50,563 nucleotides of DNA from a bacterium (GTDB lineage: Bacteria; CAIWAD01), in the NCBI GenBank assembly GCA_030685015.1, contig JAUXWS010000105.1, forward strand, positions 1 to 50,563. Direction: 5' to 3'. Each line of letters begins with the position of its first letter. Position 1 is the stretch's first letter. This document shows, piece by piece, positions 1 to 11,179 of this stretch. The notes below the pieces were generated by a model. It saw only the letters and a program-made list of their open reading frames with translations. It had not been told where the DNA came from and did not search any database. A program made the translations under genes and the position numbers.

Positions 1-1
1 A

Positions 2-679
2 GTTGAAAATGATGTTGTAATGAACGGTAATGTGATTTTGCATATTAATCAAGAATATATGATAGGATTTGTCGGCAATGAATTCTTACTCAACGAAGTT
101 TATTACGGCGTTTATCATGGACAGGCGAGCGACAATCATCCAGTTACTGGAGTTACATTTTATGGTGCGATAGAATACTGCGATTGGCTGTCAGCCATAA
201 CTGGCCTTGAACCATTTTATAATGGCAATTTAGACAACAATGAATTCCATAATCCTTATTTAAGTAATGGATATCGTCTTCCAACATCTGCCGAGTGGGA
301 ATATGCTGATCAATATAATGATCATAGAATTTATCCGTGGGGGGATTTTGGGCCGCTTCCTGAAATCGTCAATGCTCATCAATGGTATGGCGGAACAACT
401 CCAGTTGGTTCGTTTCCAGATGGATCCGGCTTGCTTGGCATTATGGATATGGCAGGAAATGTTTGGGAATATTGTAATGACTGGTCATATGATTACACCA
501 CCGATTCAGTTATAGATCCAATCGGTCCAGAATTTGGCACAAGCAAAATCTACAAAGGTGGGAGTTGGCTAAACACGCAAGGGAATTATATGTATTCATG
601 TTCTTTTAGAGTTATAGGTTCGCCAATTTCTTTTGCTGATGCGACACACGGATTTAGAATATGTAAGACGATAAGATAG
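2..679 (+). CDS. SUMF1/formylglycine-generating-enzyme-type protein, 5' partial
   Basis: The reading frame is open from the window edge, so the true start probably lies upstream; the first ATG in the window is at 20. Conserved SUMF1 landmarks appear in order: HPVTGVTFYGAIEYCDWLS, GYRLPTSAEWEYA, MDMAGNVWEYCNDW, KGGSW and a final GFRIC. In this family some members oxidise a sulfatase cysteine to formylglycine, but many bacterial homologues are binding or surface proteins; no sulfatase is in the window, so enzyme activity is not claimed. The gene is markedly AT-rich compared with the DNA after 11 kb and ends in TAG just before a good terminator. A broken relative lies at 8506-9183. Confidence 0.85.
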   Translation, partial: VENDVVMNGNVILHINQEYMIGFVGNEFLLNEVYYGVYHGQASDNHPVTGVTFYGAIEYCDWLSAITGLEPFYNGNLDNNEFHNPYLSNGYRLPTSAEWEYADQYNDHRIYPWGDFGPLPEIVNAHQWYGGTTPVGSFPDGSGLLGIMDMAGNVWEYCNDWSYDYTTDSVIDPIGPEFGTSKIYKGGSWLNTQGNYMYSCSFRVIGSPISFADATHGFRICKTIR

Positions 680-706
680 AAAATTATAAGAGCAGACGAG
701 ATATCA

Positions 707-730
707 GGGGGTCATCTTGATCCCCTTTTT
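707..730 (+). terminator. Rho-independent terminator after the SUMF1 gene
   Basis: An 8-bp stem (707-714 with 718-725, one G-T pair) closes a TCT loop and is followed directly by five T residues at 726-730. It lies 28 nt after the SUMF1 stop codon and faces the same way. Confidence 0.8.
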
Positions 731-784
731 CTACCTCCTCCCCCTCCCTTCAAAATCCTCACCACCCCACCAACTCCAACCACT

Positions 785-1561
785 TCACCTACCTTGCCCA
801 ACCATCATCACCACCCCTGTCCCATTGTCTTCCGACAGCACCCGGTAAAACCCACGCTCCTGGTCTACCTGGTTGCGGTGGGTGAAGGTTGTGCTGGGAG
901 TGTAGCCGATCCTGGTGAAGCGGACCCCACCATCCAAGGCAGAGGACCATTCAATCCGATACGCAGTCGCTGTAGGCACTGGGGTCCAGCTGATCACGTA
1001 GTCTTGGCCAACCTGCTGGATGTCAAGTTCCTGTGGCGGACTGATAGGTGGATTGCCGGTGGCGATGCCGTAGACAGCAAAGTTTTGGTTGCTGGCATCA
1101 ACTTGAACTATGACATCGTCAAAACCATCGCTATCATAGTCTAACACAATTGGACCGCCGTGAACAAGAAGTGAGGCCAATAGTGCTCCACTTTCGATGT
1201 CGATAATCTGACAAGTTTGCGTGTTTGGTATTCTATAGAAGTATTCTCCCGATCCCGGATTTCTCATTTGCAAACCGTAAACAATATGGTATGATGATCC
1301 ACTTCCCTGTGGATAAACATATCTTATTTCATAAGGAATGGTATATCTATGAAGAGAAACAGCATCATAATAACCATTTCCAGTAGGCAATTCTTTGCAT
1401 CCATCATTATTTACGTCAATTGGTTCCATAACCTTGGCTGAACAACTTAAACCACCAGGCGTGCCAAAGCTTATAAAACTTGCCTTCAGCACAATGTCTT
1501 GTGCCCAGACCAAACCGCTCCCAGCCAACAAGGTGGCCAAGGTCAACATTTTCACATTCAT
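785..1561 (-). CDS. Secreted protein with DxDxDG repeats and fibronectin-like C-terminal module
   Basis: A 258-residue protein with a clear signal peptide (residues 1 to about 20, ending in VWAQ). Two acidic DxDxDG-type loops (DVNNDG near residue 50 and DYDSDG near 145) resemble calcium loops of FG-GAP/dockerin-like repeats. The C-terminal 85 residues look like a fibronectin-type-III fold and end in a characteristic GFYRVLSEDNGTGVV string. The ATG overlaps the stop of the upstream gene (ATGA) and GGGAG lies six bases before it. It is the last gene of a three-gene minus-strand operon with two paralogues. It is probably exported to the cell surface or medium; no enzymatic motif is visible. Confidence 0.75.
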   Translation of the reverse strand: MNVKMLTLATLLAGSGLVWAQDIVLKASFISFGTPGGLSCSAKVMEPIDVNNDGCKELPTGNGYYDAVSLHRYTIPYEIRYVYPQGSGSSYHIVYGLQMRNPGSGEYFYRIPNTQTCQIIDIESGALLASLLVHGGPIVLDYDSDGFDDVIVQVDASNQNFAVYGIATGNPPISPPQELDIQQVGQDYVISWTPVPTATAYRIEWSSALDGGVRFTRIGYTPSTTFTHRNQVDQERGFYRVLSEDNGTGVVMMVGQGR

Positions 1562-2319
1562 TTTGTGCTCCCAACCATCCTGACCACCCCTGTGCCGTTA
1601 TCTTCCGACAGCACCCGGTAGTATCCCTGTGACTGGTCGGCCTGGTTCCTGTGGGTGAACGAGGTCTCCGTGGTGTATCCTATCCTGGTAAAGGATACGC
1701 CGTCGATGGCAGATGACCACTCAACACGATATGCCGTTGCCGTAGGCACCGCAGACCAGCTGATGACGTAATCCTGGCCTACCGTTTGGATGTAGAGTTC
1801 CTGGGGAGGCGAGATGGGCGGATTGCCGGTGGCTACTCCGAATACCTGAAAGGTAGTCATATCCAAGGGGATCAGGACATCATCAAGCCCATCATTGTCA
1901 AAGTCGTATATCATAATTTGATCACCAAGAACAATTTGCTCGGTCAAAAGGTCACCGGAGTATATGTCAATGAATTTCCATTTTAATGGTTGATAAGTAT
2001 TATCAATAGCGATATATTCCGCAATTCCAGGATTTCTCATTTTTGCTACAAATATGTTGTTATAAGCAAAGCTATGGTTATTATTGCAAAAAGGCAGAAA
2101 GTAAGGAGCTGTTGTTATAGTATCAAAAAATCCGCACGGAAGGATAGGTATCTCGTCAATACCGTCACAATTTACATCAGTCGGAACCACTTGTCGAACT
2201 GCCGTTAGCATTGAAGTTAAAGACATTTGTGGATGAAATGTTGCCTTCAGAACAATCTCCTGTGCCCATCCCTGATGCAGGATGGCCAAGACTGCAAAGG
2301 AACCGATGATGGATTTCAT
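1558..2319 (-). CDS. Secreted protein, paralogue of the downstream gene
   Basis: The start was set at the ATG encoding MKSIIGSFAVLAILHQGWAQ, a convincing signal peptide; the frame is open further upstream but that part has no signal peptide and overlaps the preceding gene. The protein has 253 residues. It shares with its neighbour the signal-peptide boundary (AQ-IVLKA), two acidic loops (DVNCDG, DFDNDG) and a C-terminal fibronectin-like module ending RVLSEDNGTGVVRMVG. The modules of the two genes are close enough at DNA level to recombine. It follows the upstream gene by 11 nt and overlaps the next by 4. Function is unknown. Confidence 0.72.
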   Translation of the reverse strand: MKSIIGSFAVLAILHQGWAQEIVLKATFHPQMSLTSMLTAVRQVVPTDVNCDGIDEIPILPCGFFDTITTAPYFLPFCNNNHSFAYNNIFVAKMRNPGIAEYIAIDNTYQPLKWKFIDIYSGDLLTEQIVLGDQIMIYDFDNDGLDDVLIPLDMTTFQVFGVATGNPPISPPQELYIQTVGQDYVISWSAVPTATAYRVEWSSAIDGVSFTRIGYTTETSFTHRNQADQSQGYYRVLSEDNGTGVVRMVGSTK

Positions 2320-2330
2320 AGGATGCCCCG

Positions 2331-3113
2331 TTAACGCCTTCCTTCCCCAGCCACAGGCCCAGAACGTCCACCAGCTGTCACAGCGATGACCTTGTAGAAG
2401 CCTTTTGGTACATCGCCAAAGCCTATGTGTTGGAAGGTCGAGCTTGTTGCATAGCCGACTTGTGTGAAGCAGGGTGCGTCCGGATCCGCGGACCACAGCA
2501 CTCGATAGCCATCTGCATTCGGGACGGACTGCCAAGTCAGCAGGACATCTGGCCCAATGGTCGTGATGTCGAGGGTTTGCCCGGGGGAAGCGAGGAAGGA
2601 AGAACCAACACCATAGACTTGATATGTGTAACAAGTCGGGTCATCTCCGTAACCTGTTCTTGGAGAGAATACAAAGATGTCATCCAATCCATCAGCGTCG
2701 TAATCTCTGCACACAACTCTCTGAACTCCACCGGCTGTCAGCCCTTGGAAAATGATTTCACGAGTATTTATATCATAAACATAGATGCCATCATTAGACC
2801 CGTTTACGAATTCACCAACCCATTGATTTCGGCACTTACAAAGACAAACATTCGACGGAAGTGCATACATATCACTCATGCTTGCAGGTATTACATACAT
2901 CTGACCGGTAATGACATTTAGTAATCCTATCCCACCTTGTGGTCCTGCCGAATATCCAGTATTTACCTCCAATACGCCATCGCCGTCCACATCGATATCA
3001 AGCCAAGAGGTTAGACCATTGTATAGTGAGATGTTGGCCATCTGCCCAGTGTGCTTCAATCCAATCTGGGCGAAAGTCACCACAGGCACGATAAACAACC
3101 AAGCGATCTTCAT
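2331..3113 (-). CDS. Secreted protein, first gene of the paralogue operon
   Basis: The start chosen is the ATG of MKIAWLFIVPVVTFAQ (signal peptide), with CCGGAG five bases upstream; the frame could begin about 66 nt earlier, but without gain. The protein has 260 residues and is the most divergent of the three. It keeps the acidic loops (DIDVDGDG, DYDADGLDD) and the fibronectin-like C-terminal domain, but its tail differs (GFYKVIAVTAGG). It is divergent from the helix-turn-helix gene at 3250, with 136 bp between them that hold two short inverted repeats (CTATC-TTT-GATAG at 3210-3222 and CTAC-TTCAG-GTAG at 3228-3240). These could be an operator, but that is weakly supported. Confidence 0.7.
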   Translation of the reverse strand: MKIAWLFIVPVVTFAQIGLKHTGQMANISLYNGLTSWLDIDVDGDGVLEVNTGYSAGPQGGIGLLNVITGQMYVIPASMSDMYALPSNVCLCKCRNQWVGEFVNGSNDGIYVYDINTREIIFQGLTAGGVQRVVCRDYDADGLDDIFVFSPRTGYGDDPTCYTYQVYGVGSSFLASPGQTLDITTIGPDVLLTWQSVPNADGYRVLWSADPDAPCFTQVGYATSSTFQHIGFGDVPKGFYKVIAVTAGGRSGPVAGEGRR

Positions 3114-3249
3114 AAGAACTCCGGCCATTGACGCGGGGGAGGATGCCGAAACGAAGGCAAATGAAGACGGAATATGCAAGGAAGAAGTCAGGAGAGTGAC
3201 ATTGGGATACTATCTTTGATAGATCAACTACTTCAGGTAGGCCAGAGAC

Positions 3250-3918
3250 GTGCAGATCCGCCACCACATCCATTACCTCGACCGCGGGGAGGATTGCTAC
3301 CGGGCAGAACTTCGCTTTGATCCGCCTTATGATGTTGGCGTTATGTTGGGTGCCATCGACCAGATCTACCCAAAGGATCTCGGCCATCATCCCAGTGCCC
3401 AAGCCGTCGATGTGGACTACGTGTTGAGCGTGGTGTCTGCAAACGGCGTGCTACACGTTGTGGAGCCCGTGGACAAGGCATCGGTTGTCAGCGTCACCAT
3501 CCGCCAAGGCCACACGGTGCAGGACCTGGTGGTGCGGGAGAGTGATGAAGTCATCCTGCTGGCGGGCACGAAGTGTCTTGTGTTGTGGGTGGTGGCGGGA
3601 AACCCCGGCATCTTGGCGGTTAAGGCCCTCGTTGTGCCCGACAAGGATGGCACGCACAGCAAAATCCGACGCAACATCGGCGACCTGCCCTTGCAGGAAT
3701 ACCTGACCAGGAAGCTCCTACACAAGCCGGAGGACGAAGACCTGGCTGTCACCCGGTGGCCGGATGTGTTGAAGACCCGCGAGGCATCCGCATATCTGCG
3801 GATCGGGGATAGCACCCTTCGTCAGAAAGTGGCGGAAGGGCTGATCCGTCGCACGGCATCCAAGAAATTTCTGAAGGTGGACCTGGATGCATACCTCGCG
3901 GGCATAAGGAAACGCTGA
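3250..3918 (+). CDS. Uncharacterised protein with C-terminal excisionase-like helix-turn-helix
   Basis: The 222-residue frame begins at GTG. The last 50 residues (from TRWPDVLKTREASAYL to LDAYLAGIRKR) match the MerR/excisionase-type DNA-binding domain (HTH_17): a first helix opening KTREASAYLRI, then a recognition segment and a KFLKVDLDAYL wing. The first 165 residues are not a family I recognise; they are rich in valine and aspartate and look beta-structured. Such small DNA-binding proteins often act as recombination directionality factors or local regulators, but no integrase is in the window. It stands directly upstream of the palindrome and tandem repeats and may control them. An overlapping minus-strand frame was judged a shadow. 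Confidence 0.6.
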   Translation: MQIRHHIHYLDRGEDCYRAELRFDPPYDVGVMLGAIDQIYPKDLGHHPSAQAVDVDYVLSVVSANGVLHVVEPVDKASVVSVTIRQGHTVQDLVVRESDEVILLAGTKCLVLWVVAGNPGILAVKALVVPDKDGTHSKIRRNIGDLPLQEYLTRKLLHKPEDEDLAVTRWPDVLKTREASAYLRIGDSTLRQKVAEGLIRRTASKKFLKVDLDAYLAGIRKR

Positions 3919-3989
3919 CCGTGTGCCCAAAATGTGCCCAAAAAGCTGACGAGATCCACCATTTTTCAGCTGTTTCTGGCGGTCGGACA

Positions 3990-4018
3990 TTGCGAAACTC
4001 GGCACGTAAAGTTATGAT
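3990..4018 (+). promoter_or_regulatory. Possible sigma70-type promoter before the structured repeats
   Basis: TTGCGA (3990-3995) and TATGAT (4013-4018) are separated by exactly 17 bp in a locally AT-rich stretch. Transcription would start near 4025 and meet the terminator-like palindrome within about 60 nt. FCB bacteria can use other promoter types, so this is tentative. Confidence 0.35.
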
Positions 4019-4079
4019 AATCAACAAGAAATGATGACCATCAACGGATAGGCAAGAAATGCGTCTGGCGAGTCCCTCC

Positions 4080-4129
4080 CTCTCCGTTGAAGAAAAAGGC
4101 CCGCCAGGGCCTTTTTCTTCAACGGAGAG
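4080..4129. repeat. Perfect 23-bp inverted repeat with 4-nt loop
   Basis: Arms 4080-4102 and 4107-4129 are exact reverse complements around GCCA. The inner part is a GC stem flanked by an A-run and a T-run, which is a bidirectional intrinsic terminator, but the arms extend a further 11 bp with no mismatch. It could end transcription from the gene at 3250 or from the promoter at 3990. The inner hairpin is repeated 301 bp downstream. Confidence 0.8.
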
Positions 4130-4398
4130 GCATATGTGGGTCCCGCGCTTAGCGGGACCTTCCTTAGGGATTCACGGAGTCGCGACGAGTCACATCGCTG
4201 CTCTGTGGACCTGATGCGCGACTCCGTCGACCCGCTTGATCATCAGCGCGGCTTGCCGCGATGATGGTCCTCCGAGGGGTTCCGCGCTTGGCGGAACCTT
4301 CCGCCGGGTCCTGCACGCCCGAGCCATTCTCATGGGCGAAGCGGGACATCTGACCCGGGCGTGCTATCCCACCCAACGCGACCGCCGAAGGCCAAGAT
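4098..4398 (+). repeat. Tandem structured repeat, unit A (301 bp)
   Basis: This is the first of two imperfect direct copies at a constant 301-bp offset (for example GGCCCGCCAGGGCC at 4098 and 4399, and GACCGCCGAAGGC at 4380 and 4681). The unit contains: H1, GGTCCCGC/GCGGGACC with loop GCTTA (4139-4159); H2, an 11-bp perfect stem 4174-4184 with 4217-4227 around a branched loop; H3, 4241-4251 with 4256-4266, loop CTTG; H4, GGTTCCGC/GCGGAACC with loop GCTTG (4278-4298); H5, CGCCC/GGGCG near 4316-4338. Several stems differ in sequence from unit B but keep full pairing, which points to a selected RNA or single-stranded DNA structure. No convincing protein is encoded. Confidence 0.8.
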
Positions 4399-4416
4399 GG
4401 CCCGCCAGGGCCTTTT
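4399..4416 (+). terminator. Terminator-like hairpin at the junction of units A and B
   Basis: GGCCC (4399-4403), loop GCCA, GGGCC (4408-4412) and four T residues. It matches the core of the palindrome at 4080-4129, so a transcript of unit A would end with it. This suggests about 300-nt RNA units, each closed by its own terminator. Confidence 0.5.
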
Positions 4417-4695
4417 GCATGAACGGAGAGGAATACATGGGGCGTGCGCTTGGCACGCCTTGCCATAGGGATTCGCGTGTTCGCGCCGACGACCAAGGCC
4501 CGTGTCGCGAACATTGTCCGCGAACACGCCGACCCGCTCGACCATCAGCGCGGTTTGCCGCGATGAGGGTCCTCCGAGGGGTTCCGCGTTAGCGGAACCT
4601 TCCACTGGGTCCTGCCCGCCCGAGCCATTCTTTTGGGCCAAGCGGGAGATCCTCCGCGGGCATGCCTTCCTACCCACCATGACCGCCGAAGGCTA
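4399..4695 (+). repeat. Tandem structured repeat, unit B
   Basis: This second copy ends where recQ begins. H1 is GGCGTGC/GCACGCC with loop GCTTG (4441-4459): the stem bases are mostly different from unit A, but the loop type is kept. H2 is the 11-bp stem 4475-4485 with 4519-4529; four base pairs differ from unit A and all four changed on both sides. H3 is 4549-4553 with 4558-4562, loop TTTG, with further pairs outside a G-A mismatch. H4 is GGTTCCGC/GCGGAACC with loop GTTA (4580-4599). No terminator-like hairpin follows this copy, so it may be the leader of the recQ-dprA mRNA. Confidence 0.8.
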
Positions 4696-4729
4696 CCAGT
4701 GGGGCCATCGTTTAGCGACATTCACGGCC

Positions 4730-6805
4730 ATGAGCTCGCCCATGAACTATTCCCCGGCCAGGGCCTTGGAACTGCTGCGCATCGGCTCCGGCATTCCCGC
4801 GGCATCCTTTCGAGAAGGCCAGGAAGACGCCATCCGTCATGTGGTGGAGGGCCGGGGTCGCCTGTTGGTGGTGCAGAAGACAGGCTGGGGCAAGAGCTTC
4901 GTCTATTTCATCGCGGCGCGCCTCCTGCGCGAGCAAGGCAGCGGGCCGGCCATCTTGATTTCACCCTTGTTGGCACTGATGCGCAACCAGATCCGTGCCG
5001 CGGAGAGAATGGGGGTACGTGCGGCCACCATTCATTCCGACAACCAGCAGGACTGGCCGGAGATCGAGAGTCGCCTGGCGCGCCATGAGATCGACTTGCT
5101 GTTGATTTCGCCGGAACGCTTGGCCAACGAGCATTTCACGGGCAAGGTGCTGGCCCCCATTGCCGCTCAGGTTGGTCTCCTGGTCATTGACGAGGCGCAT
5201 TGCATATCAGATTGGGGTCATGATTTCCGACCCCATTACCGGCTCATCGAACGCATCGTGCGAACCTTGCCCCCCACTTTGCGCTTGCTGGCCACAACGG
5301 CCACGGCCAATGACCGGGTGATGGAGGATCTGCGCTCGATCCTGGGTCCACGTCTGGAGGTCATGCGTGGCGATCTGAACCGGCCATCCTTGCTTCTGCA
5401 GACAATCACCATGCCCAGCCAGGCCGAGCGCATGGCCTGGTTGGCGGAGCGGATCCCCGCCTTGCCCGGCAGCGGCATCGTTTACACCCTCACCGTTCGG
5501 GATGCCAGGCAGGTGGCGGAGTGGTTGGCTTCGCGCGGCATGCTCGCCCAGGCCTACACCAGCGATTCCGCGGATCGCGAGAGCTTGGAGGATGCCCTGC
5601 TCGAAAACCGCATCAAGGTGATGGTGGCCACCACGGCCCTCGGCATGGGCTTTGACAAGCCGGACCTGGCCTTTGTGATCCACTACCAGACACCTGGTTC
5701 CGCCGTGGCCTATTACCAGCAGGTGGGACGCGCCGGACGCGCCCTGGAAGCCGCTTATGGCGTGCTGTTCAGCGGCGCGGAAGACGCGGACATCACGGAC
5801 TACTTCATCAACTCCGCTTTCCCCACGCGGGAGGAAGTGCGGCAGGTCCTCTCCACCCTTGATCAGGAAGCCCAAGGCCTCTCCATCCCTGAGATCCTCG
5901 CCCGGATCAATCTCAGCAAGGGCCGTGTGGAGAAGGCCTTGTTCCTCCTCTCGCTGGAGTCGCCGGCGCCCATCGTCAAGGATGGAAGCCGCTGGCAATT
6001 GACCGCGGCGCAGCTAAGCCCCCAGTTCTGGGAGCGCGCCGAGCGATTGACCATCCTGCGGCGGGCCGAGCAGGCGCAAATGGAAGAGTATGCGGCCTTG
6101 CGACAGGGCCACATGGAGTTCTTGATCCATGCGCTGGATGGCGACGCCAGGGGCATTCAGCCGCCCCGCCTTGACCCTTTGCCCGCCGGAACCAAGCCGG
6201 CCCTGGTCCAGGCGGCCATCGAGTTCCTCAGGCGCACGAAGCTCGTCATTGAACCACGCAGGCTTTGGCCAACGGGCGGGATGCCATCACTCGACCAGAA
6301 GGGGAGGATCTCTCCCAAATTCCAGATGGAGGAAGGACGGGCTCTTTGTGCCTGGGGTGATGCGGGCTGGGGAAGTCTGGTTCGGCAGGGGAAGTACCAG
6401 GATGGACACTTCTCGGATGACCTCGTGCAGGCTTGTGCCAGGATGATCCGGGCATGGCGGCCACAACCACCCATCGAGTGGGTCACGGCTGTACCATCCT
6501 TGCGTCACCCCCGCTTGGTGCCGGATTTTGCCCGGCGCCTGGCAGCGGAGCTGGGCCTGCCTTTCCAGGAATCCTTGCGCAAGACAGGGCATCGTCCGGA
6601 GCAGAAGACCATGGCCAATTCCATCCAGCAGGCCCGCAATGTCGACGGATCTCTCAGCGTGAATGCACTGGCCGTCCTGCCTGGGGCCGTCTTGCTGGTG
6701 GACGACATGGTGGACTCGCGCTGGACACTGACCCTGGGGGCCTATCTTCTTCGCGAGCACGGCGGTGGCGCCGTGTTTCCCTTGGCTCTGGCCACAACAG
6801 GATAG
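4730..6805 (+). CDS. RecQ-type DNA helicase fused to a ComF-like phosphoribosyltransferase
   Basis: An SF2 helicase of 691 residues if started at 4730. ATGs at 4679 (inside the repeat) and 4742 are alternatives, and none has a strong ribosome site. Walker A QKTGWGKS lies at residues 49-56, DEAH at 154-157 within the RecQ-typical [17 protein letters not shown], motif III is LATTAT, motif V is near residue 300 and motif VI is QQVGRAGR. The RecQ zinc-binding cysteines and HRDC domain are missing; a winged-helix-like stretch follows. Residues from about 560 resemble ComF/PRTases, with [13 protein letters not shown] around 654-666 as the PRPP-loop-like motif. The gene lies 5 nt before a dprA-like gene. 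Likely role: DNA unwinding in processing of foreign or damaged DNA; defence is inferred. Confidence 0.85.
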
Positions 6806-6810
6806 ACACC

Positions 6811-8220
6811 ATGTTCTCCCAAATCAGCCCGAACACCCAGGCCATGTTGATGCTCACCGCGCCCCTGATCACAGGTCGGGGTGTCGCCGAGGGGGACCTG
6901 CTGAAACCCAGCGAGTACAGAGTGCTGGCGAGGATGCTGCGCGACAACGAGGCTGAGCCGGCCGACTTGATGGGTCCGGCGGGCCTGAGCCTGATGCAGC
7001 GGCTGCCGGTCCCGCTGGATCCCTCACGGATTTCACGCTTGTTGAATCGCGGCTTTCAACTGAGCCAAGCCATCGAACACTGGAGTGCGCGGGCCATCTG
7101 GGTGATCAGCCGTGCCGACGCCGCCTACCCCGACCGCTACAAGAAACGGCTGCGCGAGGAGGCGCCCATCGTGTTGTACGGTGTGGGCGACAAAGGTCTG
7201 CTGGATCAGGGCGGGCTGGCCGTGGTCGGTTCCCGGGATGCATCCCCGGCGGCGCTGGAACACGCCCGGGCGGCGGGTCGACTGGCGGCGGCCGCGGATG
7301 TGATGATCATCTCGGGCGGGGCGCGGGGCATCGATCAAGCCGCCATGGCCGCCTCGTTGGAGGAGGGGGGAAGGGCGGCCGGGATCTTGGCCGACAGCCT
7401 GGAACGCGCCGCCCTCGAACGTAGCTCGCGGGAGGCCCTGATCCATCGCCGCCTGGTGCTGACCTCGCCCTACGATCCTTCCGCCCGCTTCCAGGTTGGG
7501 CATGCCATGCAGCGCAACAAGCTGATCTATGCCTTGGCGGACCTGGCCTTGGTGGAGGATTCGGACCACAACCGGGGGGGGACCTGGGCGGGAGCTGTTG
7601 AGCAACTCGAGAAACTGCGCTTCGTGCCCGTGCTCGTGCGGGACGACCACGATCAGAGCAAAGGCCTGTCGGCATTGGTGCGCAAGGGAGCTAGTCGGTG
7701 GCCGGAGCCCCGCGGCCCCGCTGAACTGCACCAGTTGATCAAAAGCATGGAAAGCACCGGCGCCTTGTCGAATCCCTATCAGCTGGCCCTGGATGACCCG
7801 GGTGTCCTCGCGGCCAAGCCCGACCCGACACGTGTGCGCGAATCACCGGCGGGTGCTGCCCCAGACGTGCAGGAACTAGCGAGTTCCGCCATGGCCCCCG
7901 CATCCAGTCCAGTCGCCCAGCCAGTGTGCAAGGCGAGCGTGGCGCCAGCATCCACCATGGCTTGTGAACTCTACCTCTTGGTGCGGTCACTGGCCTCCCG
8001 CCTGTCCGAACCCTTGCTCGAGAGGGAGATCGCGGAGCTGTGGGGCGTGACGCCCAAGCAGGCGAAGGCATGGATCGGCAAGCTGGTCAAGGATGGCATC
8101 CTGCTGCGCTCCGTGCGACCGGCTCGCTACCGGGCCCAGCCTCAACCTCTGCCGCTCCTTGAGGAGGAGCCAGATCCAGCAGAAGATCGCCCGAAGGGAT
8201 CCAAGGCCACCAAATCGTGA
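6811..8220 (+). CDS. DprA/Smf-like DNA-processing protein (SLOG Rossmann fold)
   Basis: Begins 5 nt after the RecQ stop; 469 residues. The N-terminal part ([20 protein letters not shown]) is helical. The Rossmann core shows AVVGSRDAS near 138-146, SGGARGID at about 168-175 (usual DprA form SGLARGID), an [10 protein letters not shown] segment and GGTWAGA near 256. After a variable proline/alanine linker a C-terminal winged helix ([20 protein letters not shown], about 400-440) resembles that of DprA. Classical DprA loads RecA on incoming single-stranded DNA during transformation. Here the direct partner is the RecQ-PRTase, suggesting a dedicated two-protein module, not housekeeping dprA. SLOG-fold proteins also bind nucleotides, which would fit the partner's PRTase domain. 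Confidence 0.85.
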
Positions 8221-8386
8221 CCATGGAACGCGGCATGACGAGGGCATGATGGCAGCCCTGGCCCTGTCCTGGCTGCAAATGCCGGGCTGGGCCATGAGCT
8301 TTGGCCCCGCCATCGCTCCCGGCGAGGTTGCGGCCGGGCGCGTTTTTCTACGATTAGATCGTGTGGCGAGAAATCTCGAAAACGCT

Positions 8387-8458
8387 GGTCCAACGATCCT
8401 AACCACACCCGTTCCATTGTCTTCTGAAAGAACCCGGCGGAATCCACGTTCCTGATCG
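8387..8458 (-). pseudogene. Fragment of the secreted-protein C-terminal module
   Basis: Read on the minus strand this encodes DQERGFRRVLSEDNGTGVVRIVG, the last strand of the module found at the ends of the genes at 785 and 1558. There is no signal peptide, start or body, so it is a remnant. The bases between the dprA stop (8220) and this fragment show no recognised gene; they include a GC-rich part followed by an abrupt fall in GC near 8340, which may mark the right edge of the recQ-dprA island. Confidence 0.65.
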
Positions 8459-8505
8459 CATGGGCGATTGCATTTAAATGATAGCATCGCTCATTTCTCT
8501 GTTGA

Positions 8506-9183
8506 GTGTCCGGTAGCATTGGACCTGGTTGGGCATATCCAAACGGATATGAGCTAGAGGAGTTACCTGTAAAGGAGGTTAGTTAGTACGGTGCCGTATG
8601 TTATTGCGACTGGCGTAGTTTAATGGATGGGCTCCCTTCGTATTACAATGAGAACTGGGAACTCATCACTCCTTCTAATAGTCAATATGGAGCAATAGGT
8701 TATCGTTTACCAACAGAGGCCGAGTGGGAGTTTGGTGTAAGATATAATGATAATCGTTCTTACAATTGGGGCAATAAATCGCCTGATTGCCAAAGAGCAA
8801 ACTTTTATAATGAAGAATTTTGTGTTTGGTGGACAAGTCCAGTTGGAAGTAATCCTGTTGGTACATCTTGTTTAGGATTACAGGATATGTCTGGTACTCT
8901 ATTAGAGTGGTGCAATGATTGGTATGATGACTACAGAGCTGATCAAAAAATCGATCCTTTAGGCCCTTCTACTGGCAGTCTTTAGGTGTTCCGCGGTGGT
9001 CATTGGGATAATAGTGATGTTGCATTGAAATGTGCTAATAATAATGCGGGAAACCCGAACACTCGTACCAGCAATGTTGGTTTCCGCATCTGCAGGACCG
9101 CCCAATATGGAAGGATTAGCAATCAACCATTGGACATCCAGACTGTGATGTTAGAAATCAATGTAGAGCATATGTCCGTTTGA
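8506..9183 (+). pseudogene. SUMF1-type gene broken by two in-frame TAG codons and a missing 5' end
   Basis: One frame carries the whole C-terminal SUMF1 pattern: AYPNGYELEELPVKEVS, then TAG at 8584-8586 where the family normally has Trp, then YGAVCYCDWRSLMDGLPSYY, GYRLPTEAEWEFG, MSGTLLEWCNDW, a second TAG at 8983-8985, and VFRGGHW and GFRICRTAQ to a TGA at 9183. The frame is otherwise undisturbed, so decay looks recent. TAG is an ordinary stop elsewhere in this window (for example at 677-679 and 6803-6805), so general recoding is unlikely. The N-terminal part of the domain and any signal peptide are absent. AT-rich like the SUMF1 gene at the left edge. Confidence 0.75.
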
Positions 9184-9938: not shown

Positions 9939-10523
9939 TTATCTATTCTTAAGTTTGCCGTGAACTTCGGTCGCAAAAATAATTCCACCCTGTATTAGAA
10001 TGTTACTCGCTTCGCCAGGAGGATAATCACCGGTCAGTCTGGATGCTTCAACGAAAATTCCATTCTGACCGAAAACACAATAAGTACCTGCACCAATAGT
10101 TGTTAACCTACCACCTTCTTCAATATCAATTTCACCAAAGCTATGAGGATGACTATCTGTGCCGGTTAAGATGAAGAAACCAAGACCGCCAGAAACGTAC
10201 GGATAGATGTAGCCCCTTGTCATTGAAAATCTATTCCCAAGAAGCAATTTCATTTGAAGAAAGTTACATCCAGCACTGACATTTCTGCCATATATCTCAT
10301 AATTGTATTTCGTCAATAAAGTTACATCCAAAGCCGTCCCAAGATACTTGCCATGAAGAAAGGCATCACCAATCAACAGCCCACTTTCACCGATTTCATC
10401 CCCTTCGACGGTGCTTTTGTTGATATAGCCGAAGCTGATCGCACCACCGCCATTGACTAATCCCTGGCATGTAGAAGACAAGAGAAGTACCAAGGCAGGG
10501 GAGATCATTTGTCTGGCATTCAT
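9939..10523 (-). CDS. Small outer-membrane beta-barrel-like protein
   Basis: The start was put at the ATG of MNARQMISPALVLLLSSTCQG, a plausible signal peptide, giving 194 residues. The mature part has alternating hydrophobic strands with glycines and aromatics (GYIYPYVSGGLGFFILTG, LTTIGAGTYCVFGQNGIFVEASRLTG), like small OmpA/OmpW-type barrels or PorT-like proteins. It lacks a recognisable C-terminal Phe signature. The frame stays open upstream into decayed secreted-protein fragments, which may be chance or a recent fusion junction. It leads an operon with the lipoprotein gene. AT-rich. Confidence 0.6.
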   Translation of the reverse strand: MNARQMISPALVLLLSSTCQGLVNGGGAISFGYINKSTVEGDEIGESGLLIGDAFLHGKYLGTALDVTLLTKYNYEIYGRNVSAGCNFLQMKLLLGNRFSMTRGYIYPYVSGGLGFFILTGTDSHPHSFGEIDIEEGGRLTTIGAGTYCVFGQNGIFVEASRLTGDYPPGEASNILIQGGIIFATEVHGKLKNR

Positions 10524-10602
10524 AGGACACCATCCTGATGTTTTACTTTTGGAATTATTACTACTTTCCCAAGTGAGTACTTCACCGCTCTGCCCACTTG
10601 CC

Positions 10603-10722
10603 CCAACCATCCTGACCACCCCCGTCCCGTTGTCTTCCGATAGCACCCGATAGAAGCCACGCTCTTGGCCTACCTGGTTGCGATGGGTAAAAGTTGTGCC
10701 TGTGGTGTAGCCGATCCCAGCT
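10603..10722 (-). pseudogene. Second fragment of the secreted-protein C-terminal module
   Basis: On the minus strand it encodes GIGYTTGTTFTHRNQVGQ followed by ERGFYRVLSEDNGTGVVRMVG, nearly identical to the ends of the proteins at 785 and 1558. The rest of that gene is missing. It lies in the same frame as the barrel gene downstream, with no stop in between. Confidence 0.7.
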
Positions 10723-10895
10723 GCAATTGGACTCCTGGGCAGATGTCGATGTTGGATTGTGAAGCCTGTGACGCGTGGGTGCGCGAGGGTGGCAAATCCG
10801 GCCTTAAGATTCAATGGGGAATGTCGCAAGCCACAACATCCATCATGCACCAGCCGACGGGACAATCCTGTGCTGGAATGGACGAGGCAGGGCCC

Positions 10896-11002
10896 TTGAT
10901 CCTGGATTGCCTGGTTCCAGTGGGTGAAGGTCGTGCCCGTGGCATAGCCGATGCGGGTGAACGTGGCCCCGTGGATGACGGATGACCATTCCACCCCACA
11001 GG
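10896..11002 (-). pseudogene. Third fragment of the secreted-protein C-terminal module
   Basis: Encodes VEWSSVIHGATFTRIGYATG and THWNQAIQDQG on the minus strand, the central part of the module, in the same frame as the fragment at 10603. The two pieces are separated by about 170 bp of unrecognised sequence. No complete gene can be built from them. Confidence 0.65.
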
Positions 11003-11179
11003 CCTTCGTGCCGGCTGCGGGCCAACCCGTCCTTCTTCCATTTTTCCATTGGGCGGACGGAGGAGCTTCCTTAGCTTCGCCTCGCCCAACGCCGCCGCGA
11101 CCATCCACCCGCTGCTCCCCGCCGGGGGCTTGCCGTGCCGCGCGGCGCCCGCGTCACCAACCAATGAGAGGGAGCCCTC

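Follow-up and report, generated by a model that had tools for sequence, protein, structure and literature searches.

A hairpin array between a tRNA-Ser end and psyrTA

In the window (the whole 50,563-nucleotide stretch analysed here, contig C105), positions 4123-4712 hold an array of hairpins that ends just ahead of a RecQ-like PRTase toxin gene and the DprA-like antitoxin gene behind it (Table 1). This succession identifies the pair as the phage-defence operon PsyrTA/RqlHI, which we take to be two names for one system; the true start of the antitoxin is probably downstream of 6706.

The two tandem 301-bp units given in a preliminary description of this DNA were recovered (start-to-start spacing 301), and their alignment, with long identical stretches, covers most of their length. 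The unit count, however, had to be corrected to four H1-H2 modules, two per unit, with starts placed by a covariance model at 4123, 4259, 4424 and 4561; module A2 reaches 37.6 bits (E 4e-9) with a model built without it. The natural start of the array is 4123 (CGGAGAGG), and a perfect palindrome, P0, precedes unit A. The terminator-like hairpin described earlier is present ahead of unit B, and the H3 hairpin of unit A has a similar counterpart in unit B with one pair broken. Folded as RNA and compared with dinucleotide shuffles, unit A gave z -3.37 (1/200 shuffles as good) and unit B z -2.70 (2/200). Open reading frames of about 116-118 aa cross the units, but the paired changes in the stems make coding unlikely as the main constraint. 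A search of the genome found the array at one locus, without any other copy, and thus none of the REP-like scatter that the preliminary description had named as counter-evidence.

Table 1. Features of the hairpin array and its surroundings, in window coordinates
Feature	Position	Strand	Remarks
Putative right portion of an integrated element (target tRNA-Ser(GCT))	1-4072	.	att core common with contig C26
HTH_17 ORF	3250-3918	+	domain score below curated cut-off
Promoter-like site TTGCGA-17-TATGAT	3990-4018	+	points into array; consensus match only
Putative attR core TCCCTCCCTCTCCGTT	4073-4088	+	4073-4086 = tRNA-Ser(GCT) 3' end
P0	4079-4130	+	perfect 24-bp palindrome, terminator-like
P0 outer 8 bp	within 4079-4130	+	acceptor 3' strand of the tRNA, paired with the complementary CGGAGAGG
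Module A1	4123-4233	+	CGGAGAGG, H1, TTCCTTAGGGAT, H2; 95.6 bits
A1 H1	4139-4146/4152-4159	+	GCTTA loop
A1 H2	4174-4184/4217-4227	+	11-bp stem
H3 hairpin	4238-4269	+	GATCATCA-G-CGCGG-CTTG-CCGCG-A-TGATGGTC
Module A2	4259-4370	+	H1' 4278-4298 (GCTTG loop), H2' 4313-4321/4356-4364
Terminator-like hairpin	4399-4416	+	GGCCC-GCCA-GGGCC-TTTT; diverged P0 before unit B
Module B1	4424-4535	+	H1 GGCGTGC/GCACGCC, H2 GCGTGTTCGCG/CGCGAACACGC; 104.9 bits
Module B2	4561-4671	+	H1'-H2', diverged; 19.4 bits, E 8e-4
PsyrT/RqlH (RecQ-like helicase-PRTase toxin)	4730-6805	+	PDLC03928, E 1.8e-272; outside element
PsyrA/RqlI (DprA-like)	6706-8220	+	PDLC03927, E 4.4e-121, residues 40-477 matched; outside element

To the left, the array borders on a tRNA remnant. 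Window positions 4070-4086 (GAGTCCCTCCCTCTCCG) match, with a single mismatch, the 3' terminus of tRNA-Ser(GCT) at C26:4277-4293 of the same genome. The same 16 nt that form the core in Table 1 close that tRNA gene, directly behind which lies a tyrosine recombinase gene (Phage_integrase, profile match 1.3e-29); with this core shared in the manner of attL and attR, and the integrase behind the C26 tRNA, 4073-4088 reads as attR. The GC content of 44-50% over approximately 1-3500, against 62-67% to the right, agrees with foreign DNA left of the core. The DNA right of 4088, array units included, would then once have lain directly downstream of tRNA-Ser(GCT). A congener supports this independently, for its tRNA end, palindrome and H1 are contiguous: window 4069-4169 matches its tRNA-Ser(GCT) end and downstream hairpins with 81% identity (E 4e-21). 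As C26 and C105 have neither sequence overlap nor common homology, it is the att core and the congener layout that place them on the two flanks of one element. An integrase element thus appears to have severed the array from tRNA-Ser(GCT) and its promoter in this genome, where the promoter-like site (1 found against 0.2 expected) might still feed the array.

Related tyrosine integrases lie directly behind two different tRNA-Ser genes of this genome, GGA (C95:8774-8858, L169) and GCT (C26:4276-4363, L167), making tRNA-Ser a repeated integration site. Separately, FGE-sulfatase-type domains of low GC, one intact and one apparently broken, flank the array and psyrTA (20-679 and 8623-9100, plus strand). 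On the minus strand, the ORFs at 785-1561, 1558-2634, 8350-8487 and 9939-11108 have a nearly identical tail (HRNQ..QERGFYRVLSEDNGTGVVRMVG), which suggests a reused C-terminal cassette.

Compensatory changes and Watson-Crick strictness

Units A and B had been said to differ in stems that still pair, and this holds: in H1, three pairs have both partners altered and one further change affects a single side; exactly 4 of the 11 H2 pairs differ, every one on both sides. In a five-sequence alignment of H1 and H2, 14/24 pairs (24 cells) had changed on both sides. The covariation score was 0.658 against 0.256 in shuffles (0/500), and slid partners gave at most 0.221, in a control biased towards the structure because the rows were set by sequence alignment and the structure was written from the sequences. 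Despite this bias, the H2 core, with all 11/11 pairs held in 5/5 sequences, is far beyond chance. An alignment of 11 modules, itself fitted to the covariance model, agrees with the covariation. The constraint on pairing put forward earlier is also supported by covarying, conserved stems at three independent loci of another genus.

The cores are strictly Watson-Crick. In the inner H1 and H2 core pairs, 161/165 cells are Watson-Crick and 0/165 are G-U, compared with 9.4% G-U (95/1016) in tRNAs of the same genomes; the cores were picked as covarying and the modules are related, hence we claim no exact probability. Whole folds contain 13 G-U among 330 pairs. The three P0 stems of the other genus are each Watson-Crick at 32/32 pairs, and differ by 6, 5 and 7 both-sided changes and 0 one-sided ones. 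The lack of G-U in covarying cores suggests that complementarity is kept or renewed at the DNA level, so that a process acting on DNA is indicated for at least part of the pattern. Stems can be made and maintained, and multibase compensatory changes produced, by template switching during replication (PMC8794818). We also tried to read the transcribed strand from wobble asymmetry, but 4 G-U against 2 A-C in the given helices proved uninformative.

Homologues behind tRNA-Ser genes and the P0 palindrome

Within a set of ~290 genomes in which the phylum is represented by five, a covariance model built from five sequences found the element in three: the present genome (G000), its congener (G002) and a member of another genus of the same family (G003). 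G001, G004 and ~285 others gave none. Further copies with covarying stems had been anticipated, often near recQ-dprA homologues; the copies exist, but behind tRNA-Ser genes instead. In G003 the element follows three of them (GCT, CGA, GGA), always co-oriented, and each locus comprises P0, CGGAGAGR, H1 with a GCYTR loop, a TTCC.TAGGGAT-like sequence and H2. Extra tandem H2-bearing repeats measure 102 bp at GCT and 224 bp at GGA. The latter reach the contig end (C8:186450-187073; L165:16450-17074), and the true length of this GGA array therefore exceeds what the assembly shows. In G002 everything beyond H1 has been lost, and in G001 tRNA-Ser(GGA) is followed by a terminator of the usual kind, indicating that the element is dispensable.

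Taken together, the array is a lineage-specific structural element, in its small family always right behind tRNA-Ser genes: it is co-oriented with the tRNA gene at 4/4 intact loci, the fifth (G000) being the one severed by insertion. The unpaired CGGAGAGR, GCYTR loop and TTCC.TAGGGAT are conserved across genera. Searches with blastn against 50,697 phage and 72,556 plasmid records gave no match, and an exact-pattern search of IMG/VR found none. A 46-nt match in G133, with an ordinary terminator and no tRNA, was rejected. The pattern of a tRNA-Ser end plus CGGAGAG, sought in 386 genomes, led outside G002 and G003 mostly to the next tRNA gene or to sites lacking a palindrome. The literature searched, whose coverage leaves out many journals, holds no description of the element.

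P0 is tied to the tRNA with precision. By eye, its arm takes in exactly 8 tRNA bases at 5/5 loci, the acceptor 3' strand plus discriminator (CCTCTCCG), and stops there; the palindrome ends in their complement CGGAGAGG, which opens the first H1-H2 module. The layout is the same, with different letters, in G002 and the three G003 loci, and the copy tracks the acceptor letter, being CGGAGAGA at GGA and CGGAGAGG elsewhere. About 55 other tRNA genes of the three family genomes have ordinary terminator hairpins outside the tRNA. In computed folding of full-length transcripts, P0 pairing beats the tRNA fold by 5.3, 10.5, 8.7 and 6.4 kcal/mol at the 4/4 intact loci, while transcripts ending at the P0 U-run keep the cloverleaf; these energies express thermodynamics only, and kinetics may differ.

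The nearest known kind in layout is RtT RNA (Rfam family RtT), reportedly described by Bosl and Kersten in 1991 from the tyrT operon of E. coli. This RNA also has its place downstream of a tRNA gene, and it is associated with tandem repeats and with the 3' end of the tRNA. RtT repeats carry direct tRNA-end copies, whereas the copy in our array, which also has tandem repeats, is inverted (CGGAGAGG) and spans 8 nt only. The tRNA here is Ser, and H1 and H2 covary in strict Watson-Crick fashion. Another comparison is with the 3' external transcribed spacers of tRNA precursors, such as 3'ETS-leuZ, which act as sRNA sponges. They resemble the array as tRNA trailers that may have a separate role, but 3'ETS-leuZ is short and processed from between tRNAs, whereas the array consists of multi-hairpin repeats behind the last tRNA. 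RtT RNA has been reported to be released from the tRNA-operon transcript and is implicated in the response to amino-acid limitation (PMC4986893). Rfam gave no gathering-score RtT match in the window and no RtT among permissive matches in 3950-4760; at both thresholds it returned only chance matches to long hairpins.

Two further families were also compared. REP/BIME elements, to which rtT-like sequences have been linked (PMC2965389), share extragenic hairpins with the array, but have many dispersed copies per genome, whereas the array occupies one locus in G000 and tRNA-Ser loci only in the relative. Integron attC sites are folded single-stranded DNA whose hairpin shape is conserved, and sequence imperfectly so, and a tyrosine recombinase reads the shape (PMC2727003). 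The array shows the same kind of conservation; however, neither an integron integrase nor a cassette structure was seen among the few ORFs scanned near G003 arrays, and the C26 integrase belongs to a tRNA-targeted element. Nor is the attC core motif recognisable by eye in the modules.

Candidate explanations of the array

Strict co-orientation, conserved unpaired motifs and a palindrome that competes with the tRNA lead us to rank first a putative tRNA-Ser trailer element with an RtT-like layout, made as RNA on terminator read-through, a tentative reading to which we give somewhat less than an even chance. The trailer would start inside tRNA-Ser(GCT) and continue as the lineage-specific array of hairpin modules. 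Mechanistically, most tRNA-Ser transcripts would stop at the U-run inside P0 and yield normal tRNA. In read-through transcripts, P0 would capture the acceptor strand, giving a structured trailer RNA of H1-H2 modules and little tRNA. Release could proceed by tRNA 3'-end processing or by RNase III-type processing of P0, as for E. coli rtT from tyrT. The letters of the stems would be replaced pair by pair, with template switching a probable aid.

A stronger version, doubtful in our view, makes P0 a switch for tRNA quality or supply, with read-through turning the tRNA transcript into structured trailer RNA. It is similarly doubtful that tRNA and trailer would be made mutually exclusive by an acceptor 5' strand repeated in inverted form after a perfect terminator palindrome, and equally so that one such switch design has been reused behind three different tRNA-Ser genes.

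Several points count against the trailer RNA. P0 is terminator-like, and it would take read-through to bring the modules into a transcript; if the RNA folds as it is made, P0 may never get to open the acceptor stem. The absence of G-U from all 165 core cells is unusual if selection acts on RNA alone; the element is dispensable, and in G000 it is cut off from the tRNA promoter. The missing G-U pairs favour two serious rivals.

In the first, which we judge unlikely but well worth weighing, P0 and the modules act as DNA hairpins, either cruciform or single-stranded, at a hotspot for integration into tRNA-Ser. The same judgement applies to a specific form of it, in which a recombination system that recognises hairpins by their shape would have left them behind or would use them as its platform. 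Strict Watson-Crick cores and P0 stems fit this explanation, as do the integrases behind GCT on C26 and GGA on C95, the inclusion of the tRNA 3' end in P0, the variable tandem copy number and a P0-like palindrome on the prophage-end contig L190. On the other hand, no integrase or transposase was seen beside the G003 arrays, where just two of the adjacent ORFs were scanned, nor was there a second copy of an att site; the C26 element uses an ordinary 16-nt tRNA-end repeat as its core and leaves the modules unused, and the phage and plasmid records hold no match.

In the second, slightly less probable still, the palindromes have no function: template switching behind the tRNA makes and repairs stems, and tandem duplication spreads them. 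Under this reading, the compensatory changes are no record of selection. Perfect stems of 24-32 bp, paralogues separated by double changes without a single one-sided change, the lack of G-U, the clustering of the A/B changes in H2 (pairs 4-6) and the documented activity of template switching (PMC8794818) all suit it. It is opposed by the conservation of the unpaired motifs between genera, by the exact end of P0 at the acceptor stem (5/5) and by the restriction to tRNA-Ser, although terminator hairpins also occur at other tRNAs. Either functional reading could, in addition, have template switching as its source of mutations.

The link to recQ-dprA, in contrast, was not upheld, since every homologue found lies directly behind tRNA-Ser and the element is absent from 80 loci around other PsyrT genes (0/80; best chance match E 1.3). 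Searches of 80 PsyrT loci by blastn and nhmmer with the units likewise gave no convincing match near psyrT. That the array encodes an antitoxin-like or guide-like RNA cognate to the defence operon is thus largely refuted and very improbable, even though the array ends just ahead of psyrT and defence systems with small-RNA partners exist: judged from the ORFs read at the four homologous loci, psyrTA follows none of them, RqlH/RqlI of E. coli has been described as a two-protein pair (PMC4670107), and the array apparently stands beside the operon by chance.

If the array is a trailer RNA, rtT-type tRNA-linked repeat RNAs are not confined to E. coli and its relatives, and this would be a clean case of a trailer competing with the acceptor stem of its own tRNA. 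Should it prove to be a DNA hairpin or the outcome of template switching, it would serve as a caution, since covariation that looks "compensatory" and is strong, but comes without G-U pairs, is by itself no proof of a functional RNA. Either way, the tRNA-Ser trailers of this family offer replicate loci for telling the mechanisms apart.

Related palindromes occur elsewhere. In three IMG/VR contigs from other bacteria or prophage ends (L187:1054-1220, L189:400-602, L190:50-119), tRNA-Ser 3' ends continue into terminator palindromes, with ~8-23 nt of the tRNA end repeated in inverted form as the far arm, reaching the T loop in L187; such palindromes may be more generally characteristic of tRNA-Ser genes, or of the elements integrating at them.
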